Of a stretch of DNA of 50,473 nucleotides, positions 3,001 through 45,480 are shown piece after piece. A model generated the notes under the pieces. The model made no database searches and had not been told where the DNA came from. It saw only the letters and a program-made list of their open reading frames with translations. Within the stretch, counting starts at the first letter, position 1, and each line of letters opens with the position of its first letter. This DNA is from Corynebacterium sp. (GTDB taxonomy: Bacteria > Actinomycetota > Actinomycetes > Mycobacteriales > Mycobacteriaceae). The translations under genes and the position numbers were made by a program. The stretch covers positions 1 through 50,473 of the forward strand of contig JAUMUD010000014.1 of the NCBI GenBank assembly GCA_030530875.1, written 5' to 3'.

Positions 3001-3626
3001 TGCTCCCAGGCACCTATGAGGTTCGCTTTGCCGCCAGCGAGGGCACCCCAGCTTCCGCAGCGGTCACCGTCGAGGTTGGCTATGGTGAGGGCAATGGCAA
3101 GAAGCCATTCGTACTCTCCTCCGGTAGCTCCTCCATCCCATGGTGGGTCTATGCAGGTGCCGCAGGTATCGGCGTGGCAGGCCTCTTCGCCGCAGCCACC
3201 GCTTGTACCGACCAGATGGGTATTGTCTCCTATCAGCTCCCAGGTCAGCGACCAACCTCCTATAACCTGAATAAGCGCGATAATGACAATATTGCTCCTC
3301 ATCTGCGCCGCTGCGATGAGCACGCTGTGAACTTCGGTCTTGGTCGCCCACTGTGCACCGATGACCAGGGTATTGCTTCCTACAAGCTTGCTGGTCGACG
3401 CCACGAGCACCTCGGCCTGAGCGAGGAAGACAACCGTCAGGTTGCCCCAACCCTGCGCCGTTGTGATGTCAATGAGACTGATACCGCAGGCCCAGGCGGT
3501 ACATTCTGCACCGATGCAAATGGTATTGCTTCCCGCCAGCTCCCAGGCCAGCGCCCAGAATCCCTGGGTCTGACCGACCAGGAGAATAAGAATATTGCTC
3601 CACGTCTTGGCCGTTGTGTTGAGTAG
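3..3626 (+). CDS. Large Ig-like-repeat surface protein, C-terminal part (5' end outside window)
   Basis: The frame is open from base 3, so the start lies upstream; 1207 residues are visible. It consists of tandem Ig-like beta-sandwich units of two sizes: longer ones of about 100-120 residues ending in motifs such as PGDYTVTA and EKPAAP, then three compact ones of about 60-80 residues beginning KITGLD (near 2407, 2650 and 2899) with YEYRKKGSTEW-type cores. Near the end is a hydrophobic segment (about 3136-3203, PWWVYAGAAGIGVAGLF), followed by three tandem repeats of about 50 residues starting CTD and ending in R-x-R/G-R-C (3204-3353, 3354-3506, 3507-3623). Each has two cysteines and an IAPxL motif. 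Repetitive acidic Ig-like units suggest an extracellular stalk or adhesin; the Cys repeats are unfamiliar to me. There is no LPXTG signal. A terminator follows directly. Function as an adhesin is inferred from architecture only. Confidence 0.85.
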   Translation, partial: DPVNVVVKEKPAAPVQKDNDKTPAASVAGKSEGALTVKNPSAGAVYTVTDSNNNVVGSNLTANNDGVLLKEDGTPLTLNPGTYSVVAQVPGDDSSKTSAGSFTVKEKAATPEATNPTLADNGQSNGQIATPGLTAGTAVEYKGKNDTDYKKAKVDDKGVLVDTESGAPIPLAPGDYQVRIPANGDVLASDPADVRVLEKPAAPAGSATPSKKDTAEGVITLSNKNDDATYTVKGPGTDTTTVTLKTNDKGELVDPATGQPHVFTPGDYTVTATVGSGDNAATSPATTITVAEKPAAPTVTTTLSNNGANDGSITVTNPNTDSGVKYQIRKKGESEWTDTTLGENNKLTENGGTNFAPGEYEVRVVKTPTGGTEVASDITPVTVYEAPAAPIQDLNNYANPAQTGVEVGADGQISSDDKLGVLTVTNPDKNATYTVKNNAGTTVATGKVNDKGELVDNNGNLLKFEHGNYTVTATVTDPTNPQSTATSDAGNFTVTAKAKKPQGSANAASNGQSNGSVNVDLANGTTVEYQLNGGTWTKGTVKDGKLAGSDGTVLDSLAPKTQVRVRIPADDTNQLLASDPLEVTINEIPAAPAGAGTKSHVGEKEGEITLSKLPYSVINNPDTRIVVTGPSTSTGTPETKEYKVNTDGSLVDDQGNTPTFAPGTYSVSIKNGDGTSTSTSINVTPIAKAPEANGVDTTTTNGTDGHINTPQLPKGTEVEYRPSGSDDNSYKKAKVGDNGQLVDDNGAAIAVPSGNYQVRVVSGTDNGLAVEPSDPTEVEVFDPAPRGLDSNVASGADQKDGKITGLDANTTYQYRPKGSTEWIDVPAGTSIDGLAPGTYEVRTNNGTGTSRVTELTVATAETPAAPANLNGVAVTKANANDGKITGLDGNTSYEYRKKGSTEWTTVPAGATTVENLAPGDYEVRVAAKDGNPASAASTVTVNDAATPEGPLDLGGQNASTETTNDGKITGLDASRTYEYRKQGSTEWISVPAGSTSINDLLPGTYEVRFAASEGTPASAAVTVEVGYGEGNGKKPFVLSSGSSSIPWWVYAGAAGIGVAGLFAAATACTDQMGIVSYQLPGQRPTSYNLNKRDNDNIAPHLRRCDEHAVNFGLGRPLCTDDQGIASYKLAGRRHEHLGLSEEDNRQVAPTLRRCDVNETDTAGPGGTFCTDANGIASRQLPGQRPESLGLTDQENKNIAPRLGRCVE

Positions 3627-3664
3627 TAGCGAGTAATTCTGGAAAATTCTCCAATTACGTAGAT

Positions 3665-3691
3665 GCCGCCCTTCGGGGCGGCTTCTTTTTT
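3665..3691 (+). terminator. Rho-independent terminator of the Ig-like surface protein gene
   Basis: A 7-bp GC stem (GCCGCCC / GGGCGGC) closes a TTCG tetraloop and is followed by a T-rich run. It lies 39 nt after the stop codon and just before the purB promoter. Confidence 0.9.
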
Positions 3692-43287: not shown

Positions 43288-43361
43288 GGCCCTGTGGCGC
43301 AGTTGGTTAGCGCGCCGCCCTGTCACGGCGGAGGTCGCGGGTTCAAGTCCCGTCAGGGTCG
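43288..43361 (+). tRNA. tRNA-Asp (anticodon GTC), copy 1
   Basis: Acceptor GGCCCTG/CAGGGTC with discriminator G, anticodon loop CTGTCAC, T arm GCGGG TTCAAGT CCCGT. CCA not encoded. Identical to 43468-43541. Confidence 0.96.
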
Positions 43362-43467: not shown

Positions 43468-43541
43468 GGCCCTGTGGCGCAGTTGGTTAGCGCGCCGCCC
43501 TGTCACGGCGGAGGTCGCGGGTTCAAGTCCCGTCAGGGTCG
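43468..43541 (+). tRNA. tRNA-Asp (anticodon GTC), copy 2
   Basis: Base-for-base the same as the copy at 43288, followed 4 nt later by tRNA-Phe. Confidence 0.96.
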
Positions 43542-43545
43542 CGTT

Positions 43546-43618
43546 GGCCAGATAGCTCAGTCGGTAGAGCATCCGCCTGAAAAGTGGAAGGTCGCCGGTT
43601 CGATCCCGGCTCTGGCCA
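43546..43618 (+). tRNA. tRNA-Phe (anticodon GAA)
   Basis: Acceptor GGCCAGA/TCTGGCC with discriminator A, anticodon loop CTGAAAA, T arm GCCGG TTCGATC CCGGC. CCA not encoded. Confidence 0.96.
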
Positions 43619-43625
43619 CAGATTG

Positions 43626-43652
43626 AAAGCCCCGGAGAAATCCGGGGCTTTT
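43626..43652 (+). terminator. Terminator of the tRNA cluster
   Basis: AAGCCCCGGA / TCCGGGGCTT with a GAAA loop, then TT. Confidence 0.88.
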
Positions 43653-43798
43653 CGCGTATGTACTGACGCACCTTTGGGTTGAATTTCCCGAATTTTCTTC
43701 TTTGTGTCGGAAATGCCCCCTGAACTTTAGTTTCGCCGATGTGGTGACACTGTTGTTAGTGTGAAAAATGGGGCTATTTTGAGTTTAAAAAGTGGCTC

Positions 43799-43839
43799 TG
43801 ACCTCTATCTTTTCTGTGTGGCGATCATAACGGTAAGTT
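43799..43839 (+). promoter_or_regulatory. Promoter-like block resembling the putative rRNA promoter at 50389
   Basis: TGACCTC (43799-43805) and TAAGTT (43834-43839) are exactly 35 nt apart, start to start, as in the block after murA. TTTCTG lies 17 nt before TAAGTT. A GATGTGGTGACACTG (43738-43752) relative of 50338-50352 lies further upstream. The rest of 43653-43988 has no gene; it contains GGGGGTAGTGAA twice (43875, 43930). Confidence 0.4.
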
Positions 43840-43988
43840 GTGATGCCTGATTTTTGGTCTTCGTGGGGGCGATCGGGGGTAGTGAATCCTGCAACGTTTT
43901 CGCACGTAGCGGGATTTTTCTCAGGTTGCGGGGGTAGTGAAAAACGACTTTATTAGCGCTTCTTGACTCCATGTGTTTAGATTGAGAC

Positions 43989-44273
43989 ATGGAATTTCAA
44001 GTCAGAAGCCGAATGGACTGCGATGGCGGTCGCTTCGTTCTAATGGTTAATGGTGTTGAAGCCGGATACGCCCACTACGCCCTCGAGGACTTTCCCGAGG
44101 ACCCGAAGAATAAGCGAAGGGTATTCGATCACACCATCATTCAAGAGCGATTCCGCAGCCAAGGTCTCGGTTCTCGGTTGATTGAAGAATCCGTAAAAGC
44201 TACTGAGGCAGCAGGTCACCCTTATAGGGCGACATGCTCCGCTGTAGAGGATTGGTTGACGAAGAACCGCTAA
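43989..44273 (+). CDS. Small GNAT-like N-acetyltransferase (NATD1/YjdJ type)
   Basis: 94 residues, the size of the one-domain COG2388 acetyltransferases. GRFVLMVNGVEAGYAHY forms the first hairpin, VFDHTIIQERFRSQGLGSRLIEE gives the acetyl-CoA binding loop (R/Q-x2-GxG), and the end AEDWLTKNR-like helix closes the fold. TAGATT (43978-43983) lies 5 nt before the ATG, so a short or absent leader is possible. Substrate unknown. The gene is followed without a terminator by the structured RNA-like region. Confidence 0.85.
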   Translation: MEFQVRSRMDCDGGRFVLMVNGVEAGYAHYALEDFPEDPKNKRRVFDHTIIQERFRSQGLGSRLIEESVKATEAAGHPYRATCSAVEDWLTKNR

Positions 44274-44299
44274 GGAACCTTCAGCCATGACTTTTCGAA

Positions 44300-44792
44300 C
44301 CGTGGCTCTCTTAATAGCTGCTTGATAGGAGCGAATACCGAGCAGTTTAGAGCCACCTCGGGAAGCGGGCAATGGGGTCGGACCCCCACTTACACTTAGC
44401 CGTTCGTCTTCATTCGTCGACTGGTCGCACGGTCCTCCCGGTCACCTGCACACAATGAGCGTCCTATACGCCCGCCGGGTGGGCCTGGAGGTTAGATAGG
44501 AATTGATAGTCGGTCCTATCAAACCTCCAGGTCTAGTCCGTGTCTACCACGACGGTTAGACCTCTCAGTAGGTAGGCTGAGAGCTCCTCGGGGGTGGTAG
44601 CCCGAGGTTGAGTAGCACTATTCTCTTAATGGAGGTAGTGGACTCCTTTCTATGGTAGGGAAACACGCCTTAGGGTGTGTGGAGAGCCTTTTGTTTGGTG
44701 CGTGAGTCTGTTCTCCCGTGATGGATGCCACCATCAAACAAAAGGAAATGGTCCTCCTCGACACAATTCGGTTGGTCGAGGAGGACTTTTTT
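44300..44792 (+). ncRNA. Candidate large structured noncoding RNA, family not recognised
   Basis: About 490 nt without a plausible reading frame but with a chain of stem-loops. GTGGCTCT (44302) pairs with AGAGCCAC (44349). CCTGGAGGTT-a-GATAGGA (44484-44501) pairs with TCCTATC-a-AACCTCCAGG (44514-44531), 17 bp. GGTCTA (44530) pairs with TAGACC (44557) around CGTG/CACG. CTCTCAG (44562) pairs with CTGAGAG (44577), and CCTCGGG (44586) with CCCGAGG (44601). CCTTTTGTTTG (44687) pairs with CAAACAAAAGG (44735). A very strong terminator ends it. It lacks the RNase P core, tmRNA ends and SRP RNA motif. The 5' end is uncertain; it may be processed from the GNAT mRNA or start near 44280. A phage remnant or mobile-element end is the main alternative. 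Confidence 0.5.
44751..44792 (+). terminator. Strong terminator of the structured RNA-like region
   Basis: GTCCTCCTCGAC / GTCGAGGAGGAC, 12 perfect base pairs, 12-nt loop, followed by TTTTTT. Confidence 0.93.
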
Positions 44793-44800
44793 ATGCTTAA

Positions 44801-44835
44801 TGCCCCTGGAGCTACACGATGTAGTCCCAGGGGCA
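44801..44835 (-). terminator. Inverted repeat downstream of cysE, probable terminator
   Basis: TGCCCCTGG-ag-CTAC / GTAG-tc-CCAGGGGCA encloses a short loop. T-rich tail on the minus strand is modest (TTAAGCATAAAAAA), so efficiency is uncertain. Between this and cysE there is a further weak repeat (GCCGCTA/TAGCGGT). Confidence 0.55.
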
Positions 44836-44885
44836 TGCTTAGGCCGCTATTGTCGATCTGGTAATTTAGCGGTCCCTTAAGACCA

Positions 44886-45458
44886 CTAAATGTGGTAGTA
44901 GTAATCCGGGTCGACGAGTTTGATGAACTCGGAGTCCTTGCGTGGACGGTTCTTGGCTGGAATACCCACGGCGATGTGATGCGGGGGCACATCCTTGGTT
45001 ACTACGGCATTGGCGCCAATGGCGCTGCCTTCACCAATGGTGATGGGGCCAAGGACCTTGGCGCCCGCACCCACAGTGACATTGTCCTGAAGGGTAGGGT
45101 GGCGCTTGGTCTGAGTAAGCACCTGACCGCCCAGAGTCACACCGTGATAGAGCATGACGCCATCGCCAATTTCAGCGGTCTCACCAATGACCACGCCCAT
45201 GCCGTGGTCGATAAAGAAGCGGCGCCCAATGGTGGCACCCGGATGGATTTCCACACCGGTGAGGAAGCGGGTGAACTGCGAGAGAATCCTGGCGGGTGCT
45301 TTGAGGTTCTTTTGCCACAACTTGTGGGCAATCCGATATGACCAGATGGCGTGAAGTCCAGAGTAGACAATTGCATTCTCCACGTCACCGCGGGCTGCAG
45401 GGTCATGATCACGGGCGTTAGCAAGATCTTCGCGGATTAGCGCGAGAAGTTCCTTCAT
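44886..45458 (-). CDS. cysE: Serine O-acetyltransferase
   Basis: 190-residue left-handed beta-helix enzyme that makes O-acetylserine from serine and acetyl-CoA. Short form: the N-terminal helical domain is reduced and the core [22 protein letters not shown] contains the catalytic His/Asp pair; hexapeptide repeats and a loop [15 protein letters not shown] follow. ATG 45458 ([11 protein letters not shown]) is preferred over an upstream in-frame start six codons earlier. It lies 67 nt downstream of cysK on the same strand, separated by a 10-bp hairpin, so the pair is probably one operon with attenuated cysE. Confidence 0.95.
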
Positions 45459-45480
45459 GAGTGTTAAGCCTATCAAAGAA

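Follow-up and report, generated by a model that had tools for sequence, protein, structure and literature searches.

What is a chain of strong stem-loops doing between two convergent protein genes of a Corynebacterium genome? A sequence-only reading had pointed out such a region of about 490 nt between a GNAT acetyltransferase gene and cysE, and had proposed that it might be a new abundant RNA or a leftover of a mobile element. Here, the window is the whole stretch of DNA that was analysed (50,473 nt); its source is a draft genome (G000) of 2.19 Mb in 67 contigs, with a completeness of 93.9%. The nearest relative (G058) is a MAG of Corynebacterium sp. isolate S11A_Sa_2_sub (record JAUMTX010000051.1).

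The locus and its flanking genes

The gene order in the window is tRNA-Glu, Asp, Asp and Phe, then a small GNAT acetyltransferase gene (43989-44273, plus strand, 94 aa), the structured stretch, convergent cysE (44886-45476, minus strand) and cysK. The names cysE and cysK are presumptive, being taken from the sequence and the earlier reading. The two tRNA-Asp copies before GNAT, at 43288-43361 and 43468-43541, have equal scores, and G058 has one copy there. The GNAT protein is matched by Pfam PF14542 (Acetyltransf_CG) with 48.5 bits (cut-off 30), and an orthologue with 78% identity is found at the same place in G058. We define the structured non-coding stretch as 44274-44797 on the plus strand, directly downstream of GNAT, from its stop codon to just past a terminator, on the basis of the fold z-score and the lack of an ORF at Pfam level. 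Both flanks had been placed correctly in the sequence-only reading, with the right coordinates, and its statement that the gap holds no credible reading frame is borne out: none of the six ORFs that lie in or overlap the gap, besides GNAT, reaches a Pfam curated cut-off, and one of them gives a weak match at E 0.13.

A possible -10 element, TAGATT (43978-43983, plus strand), is located just before the GNAT start codon, and ATGTGTTTAGA(T/A)T shortly 5' of the GNAT ATG is common to the window and G058, a conservation from which the GNAT message would be leaderless. This candidate is absent from the sites of the promoter scan, which found no consensus promoter in 43600-45000. Since the consensus used in the scan does not cover all corynebacterial promoters, a promoter belonging to the stretch itself may have been missed. 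Between 44274 and 44746, no terminator was listed by a simple scan, which also misses the T6 terminator described below.

Folding of the stretch, its hairpins and the terminator

Segment 44290-44800 has a predicted folding energy of -226.7 kcal/mol on the plus strand, corresponding to a z-score of -6.55, and none of 100 dinucleotide shuffles folded as well; the z-score of the minus strand is -5.75. When the terminator is removed, the plus strand value drops to -5.11. The excess stability is unevenly distributed, the first 191 nt being ordinary (z -0.96) and 44532-44686 reaching z -2.88. For a rough ranking, the plus strand of the window was covered by 100 tiles of 500 nt, a further stretch was set at the finding itself, and each of the 101 was compared with 14 shuffles; the two highest excess stabilities belong to two overlapping stretches, whose first positions are 44501 and 44290. 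The observation of a stem-loop-rich region of about 490 nt is therefore confirmed, as the best-folding plus strand stretch of the 50-kb window for its composition. A wider scan of 4108 stretches of 400 nt, taken from genus loci on both strands, put 44401-44800 in 4th place; since tRNA genes or long ORFs (five places checked) occur in several others near the top, strong folding alone is no proof of an RNA gene, and the scan was of no use for finding further over-structured stretches. Folding this strong is rare, though not unique, and the scores by themselves would not establish a transcript. The predicted fold contains 27 G-U pairs on the plus strand and 8 on the minus strand. An assignment to the plus strand from these counts was dropped because the known CoRP RNA (described in the last section), with 11 on plus and 26 on minus, fails the same test.

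The individual elements, all on the plus strand, are as follows. At the 5' side, a long hairpin at 44291-44365 consists of helices of 8, 8 and 11 bp (mean pair probability 0.93-0.97), and a central branched domain occupies 44414-44555 (helices with mean pair probability 0.79-0.94). The longest stem, for which the fold gives 25 bp, is at 44480-44535 (0.94) and holds an 18-nt inverted repeat, 44484-44501/44514-44531, with 17 of 18 bp formed (94% complementary), which corresponds to the 17-bp stem claimed at 44484-44531. Of the consecutive hairpins that had been reported next, two are found both as inverted repeats and in the pair probabilities: CTCTCAG/CTGAGAG at 44562-44583 (0.99), spanned by the inverted repeat 44559-44568/44577-44586, and CCTCGGG/CCCGAGG at 44586-44607 (0.93), with the inverted repeat 44586-44592/44601-44607. 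The third, 44530-44562, is likewise present as an inverted repeat; in the minimum-energy fold, however, a larger competing helix of the domain 44414-44555 is preferred. Further downstream, the hairpin CACTATTCTCT/GGAGGTAGTG at 44616-44640 (0.93) is followed at 44687-44745 by a 17-bp stem, CCTTTTGTTTGGTG.../...CACCATCAAACAAAAGG, that encloses a further hairpin (0.99; inverted repeat 44687-44700/44732-44745).

The intrinsic terminator at 44746-44792 (inverted repeat 44746-44762/44775-44791) is plain in the sequence, as had been described: a GC-rich core stem GTCCTCCTCGAC/GTCGAGGAGGAC of 12 bp with a 12-nt loop, and then T6 at 44787-44792. The simple scan did not list it, probably because the loop limit of the scan is 8. 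A separate 17-nt palindrome, an inverted repeat at 44800-44836, possibly belongs to the cysE 3' end.

Comparison with known RNAs gave no assignment. In the cmscan of the whole window, the Rfam gathering score was reached by five tRNAs only, and at E <= 10 the region 43700-44900 gave five matches, to eukaryotic families and all far under the Rfam thresholds. The earlier exclusion of known RNAs thus holds in Rfam, no family being found at the stretch. Known Rfam families, 6S RNA included, were rejected for want of a covariance model match, and RNase P RNA and tmRNA were rejected because both have their copies elsewhere in the genome (C67:132-543 with 275.5 bits and C10:98218-98599 with 140.2 bits, respectively).

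Relatives of the locus and a probable tail of the GNAT message

In blastn against 201 genomes of the genus, the stretch found one, i.e., itself, and there is no second copy in its own genome (E <= 0.001). A single-sequence structural model of the central domain (R3), searched over 242 genomes with filters that lose weak matches, matched only itself and its own opposite strand; among 50 sources including the G058 insert described below, R3 found no structural relative.

The flanking genes are more widespread. GNAT protein matches occur in 142 of 151 genomes, and when the best 30 of the 142 were taken as loci, cysE was beside GNAT in 29 of these 30, the window's own locus included. At E <= 1e-16 over 242 genomes, GNAT matches besides the window were restricted to G058 (78%) and G041 (46%). 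The distance between the ends of the GNAT and CysE matches is 619 nt in the window, 456 nt in G058 and 51-177 nt in 25 of the 27 other measured loci; the two remaining long gaps are of 462 nt (L013, tandem repeats) and 747 nt (L008, a 226-aa ORF). At L013 (genome G033), imperfect tandem repeats were seen by eye at ~1860-2060, instead of hairpins, in the GNAT-cysE gap, so this spot tolerates inserts.

G058 retains both flanks, GNAT and cysE, and carries between them an insert of ~450 nt with z-scores of -8.29 on the plus and -4.18 on the minus strand; cut before its last hairpin, the insert still has z -6.97 on the plus strand. As yardsticks between G000 and G058, RNase P RNA is 94.7%, tmRNA 99.2% and GltX 91.1% identical (89% over 300 residues). 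The best local alignment between the two inserts is a 20-nt block, GGGTCGNACYCCCACYTRCA, whose score was reached by 516 of 1000 shuffles. The block lies at a similar offset in both inserts, and in an ungapped comparison limited in offset its score was reached by 11 of 300 plain shuffles, at best weak support, and by 60 of 300 with no limit. In global alignment, the score of the whole gap was reached by 37 of 400 shuffles, and across eight such tests the count was between 27 and 293 of 400. When the inserts were compared as proteins in six frames, the best E was 0.009, with the matching end antisense to the GNAT 3' end. The 20-nt block was also tried and rejected as a motif: with at most one mismatch it occurs in 4 of 242 genomes, two being its sources and two (G177 and G128) having it in ORFs, and a backwards control pattern of the block also gives 4 hits.

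A new abundant RNA in the sense of a conserved family is not supported by these results, since blastn and R3 recovered only the stretch itself and the insert of G058 could not be aligned with it; the comparison of the homologous intergenic region, which had been proposed as a check, gave for the nearest relative no alignment beyond chance. Because the inserts are unalignable while RNase P RNA and tmRNA are nearly identical, the stretch is not constrained in the manner of housekeeping RNAs, nor in that of CoRP between genomes equally far apart. Either it is chiefly the folding that has persisted, or G000 and G058 gained their inserts separately. Independent insertions are possible because the two folds are not demonstrably homologous; to judge from the alignments, a faint common origin of the two inserts may likewise be allowed for.

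Independent acquisition would suit a stretch of foreign origin, leftover or passenger, that came to lie where the two convergent genes leave a permissive spot, its stems being remnants of mobile-element hairpins. The tandem repeats of L013 and the 226-aa ORF of L008 at the same spot agree with this, as do two inserts that are unalignable, as though independent. However, blastn searches of phages (50,697 records) and plasmids (72,556 records) were negative at E <= 0.1, the genome has the stretch once only, its ORFs all stay below the Pfam cut-offs, the window contains no second tRNA-Phe 3' end, and dead DNA would be expected to lose strong folding. The mobile-element suggestion of the sequence-only reading is thus not supported by the phage and plasmid records, the copy number or the tRNA-Phe end, and we keep it as a rival that is unlikely but still to be reckoned with. 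The long stem has no copy in viral contigs; one distant GNAT match (43%) was seen in these contigs.

The stretch could otherwise be a free-standing orphan RNA of a small lineage, with a promoter of its own, acting in trans and changing fast in sequence while its stems are kept. It has the appearance of a discrete unit with a strong terminator, both insert-bearing genomes have strong structure there, and the block GGGTCGNACYCCCACYTRCA stands at a similar offset in the two; but chance would explain the block (its score is reached by 516 of 1000 shuffles, or by 11 of 300, at best weak support, when restricted in offset), no promoter was found, and R3 has no structural relative in 50 sources or 242 genomes. 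We consider such an RNA rather unlikely.

Our preferred reading, which we put forward tentatively and at somewhat less than even chance, is that this is a lineage-restricted, fast-diverging and strongly structured non-coding stretch, most likely transcribed as the tail of the GNAT message and having a local effect. Transcription of the plus strand would occur by read-through from GNAT and end at the T6 terminator, so that the GNAT mRNA would carry a hairpin-rich 3' tail of ~520 nt; trimming of this tail could yield a stable RNA. The likeliest effect would be local, i.e., formation of the transcript end, protection of the message or separation of the two convergent units, and a conserved, sequence-specific function in trans would not be expected of such a tail. 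Points for this reading are the z-scores of the stretch (-6.55, and -5.11 when the terminator is left out) and of the G058 insert (-8.29, and -6.97 when cut), the long GNAT-cysE distance in both genomes, the retention of GNAT and cysE in G058, and the failure to find a consensus promoter or, between 44274 and 44746, a listed terminator. The predicted structure, the terminator sequence and the lack of known families, of detectable relatives and of alignment with the G058 insert are shown; we infer transcription, strand, processing and function. The unalignable inserts, beside nearly identical RNase P RNA and tmRNA, fit a constraint on structure or none, rather than one on sequence. A point against the GNAT tail is that it leaves unexplained why structures of such length occur in just two of the genomes examined.

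Structured 3' untranslated regions ending in an intrinsic terminator are a general kind, and the present stretch is like them in being 3' of a protein gene, in having no listed terminator in between and in its GC stem with a T run. Unlike the usual gap of the genus loci (51-177 nt in 25 of the 27 other measured), it is long and strongly folding. Literature searches listed no paper on the GNAT-cysE locus. As passenger DNA, or as no more than a 3' tail with structure, the stretch is a local curiosity. Should it be transcribed and its structure be the reason for its retention, G000 and G058 would present a sharp case of a long RNA with its strong fold retained and its sequence turned over, in which tmRNA changes by under 1% over the same span.

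Comparison with CoRP and other polymerase-binding RNAs

What the stretch has in common with 6S and Ms1 RNA is no more than the broad notion of an RNA with structure and a terminator at its end, and a functional likeness would be speculative. 6S RNA has the shape of one long interrupted rod, whereas the stretch is made up of many separate hairpins. It is also longer than 6S and Ms1 RNA, which are about 200 and 300 nt according to PMC11077062; the same paper reports that searches of C. glutamicum for the two, by synteny and by structure, were negative.

PMC11077062 describes CoRP, a 516-nt RNA polymerase-binding RNA of C. glutamicum (NC_003450.3:1366239-1366719), which is flanked in the order tRNA Gln - Glu - CoRP - Glu, has an overlapping ORF in C. 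diphtheriae and binds both the core and the holoenzyme of RNA polymerase; the paper also contains the proposal of one abundant polymerase-binding RNA in every species. Because the sizes are so close (~516 and ~520 nt), we checked the stretch for CoRP identity. Both occur in the same genus, are intergenic and mostly non-coding with a length of ~500 nt, are near tRNA genes and have a non-random predicted fold (the C. glutamicum-like CoRP copy folds at z -3.05). The synteny of CoRP, on the other hand, differs from that of the window locus (tRNA Glu-Asp-Asp-Phe, GNAT, insert, cysE).

CoRP sequences were recovered by using gltX and tRNA synteny, an nhmmer profile was grown, and the covariance models R1 and R2 (59 core sequences) were constructed. 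For these, RNAalifold gave only 5 and 3 base pairs, so R1 and R2 are mostly sequence models. The positive control of R1 was a match at 1366339-1366472 of the 3.31-Mb genome G212, which falls within the CoRP coordinates of the paper and has the expected tRNA genes on its two sides; from this position and the size we infer that G212 is C. glutamicum, and R2 gave 67 bits in this C. glutamicum-like genome. R1 detected CoRP in at least 84 of 242 genus genomes (E <= 0.05), a lower bound because strict filters lose weak members such as the split copy of G036 and the partial nhmmer matches of G133 and G042. R2 was also applied to 38 R1-negative genomes, G000 and G058 among them, and gave weak matches only (E <= 1), at best 22.5 bits in G127, with 16.9 bits in G000 and 15.7 bits in G058; the G127 match (E 7.4e-4) could be a diverged member of CoRP. 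By GltX, many of these 38 genomes, in which neither model sees a clear CoRP, are close to that of the window.

In 44200-44900, the CoRP core was matched with at most 5.8 bits (R1) and 8.1 bits (R2) when filters were off, and the nhmmer CoRP profile, at E up to 100, matched neither the stretch nor the G058 locus, both strands being covered. CoRP identity was rejected, since the conserved core (SD-like AAGGAG..ATGGCAG, the hairpin GGCAUCGCC-AUAAUCC, ACUUC...GAAGU and AGGAGCU) is not found in the stretch by R1, R2 or the profile. No recognisable CoRP was detected by R1 or R2 in the genomes of G000 and G058; because the models miss diverged members (G133 and G042), this does not prove absence. The canonical CoRP site of G000 is readable up to tRNA-Gln, where contig C47 ends, and in G058 the canonical tRNA Gln-Glu...Glu interval holds two ORFs of 308 and 231 aa.

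The stretch might then be a relocated or analogous RNA polymerase-binding RNA, resembling 6S, Ms1 or CoRP, that replaces CoRP where CoRP is unrecognisable. CoRP is 516 nt long and lies among tRNA-Glu genes (PMC11077062), and the stretch, of ~520 nt, follows a tRNA Glu-Asp-Asp-Phe cluster at a distance of ~0.7 kb; the models recognise a CoRP in neither G000 nor G058, the canonical interval of the latter being occupied by the two ORFs; and CoRP itself diverges fast, two CoRP pairs at 82.8% GltX identity having scores of only 13-14. Yet the stretch contains no CoRP core even with filters off (best 8.1 bits), and a CoRP pair at 90.7% GltX identity scores 285, as against 12 for the inserts of G000 and G058 at 91.1%. 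Furthermore, 36 other R1-negative genomes also show weak matches only, and CoRP is so commonly missing that its absence does not point to the GNAT-cysE locus. We regard the replacement as improbable. It would be more improbable still that corynebacteria without a recognisable CoRP generally have a fast-evolving ~500-nt GNAT-cysE RNA that binds RNA polymerase instead, through repeated reinvention with the architecture kept. An identity as a CoRP-like RNA changed beyond recognition stays conceivable.

The CoRP alignment is usable as an RNA family model in its own right, and the many corynebacteria without a model-recognisable CoRP make the proposal of PMC11077062, an abundant polymerase-binding RNA in every species, testable. 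Several features of CoRP were noted along with these searches. An example of the locus is L108 (G212), 1420-1950. In the alignment A5 of 43 sequences, a conserved core junction reads AGC[GGC-AUC-GCC]AUAAUCCA[ACUUC...GAAGU]AGGAGCU. Its 5-bp stem was located by best fit in 34 of the 43 sequences, in some of them at other places, with the variants ACTTC/GAAGT, GATTC/GAATC, CCTTC/GAAGG and CCCTC/GAGGG. For the short GC hairpin, pairing is seen in 95.3% of cells, a value as high being found in none of 500 shuffles, and 5 cells change on both sides. In G036 (L058), CoRP is split into parts at oriented positions 687-845 and 3512-3667, with ~2.7 kb between them, which hints that CoRP may be dispensable. 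The 376-aa and 255-aa ORFs that split it presumably resemble the istA/istB pair of an IS21-type element. CoRP sequences also keep an SD-like AAGGAG followed mostly by ATGGCAG (e.g., L049, 1400-1420), like the conserved start of a short peptide.
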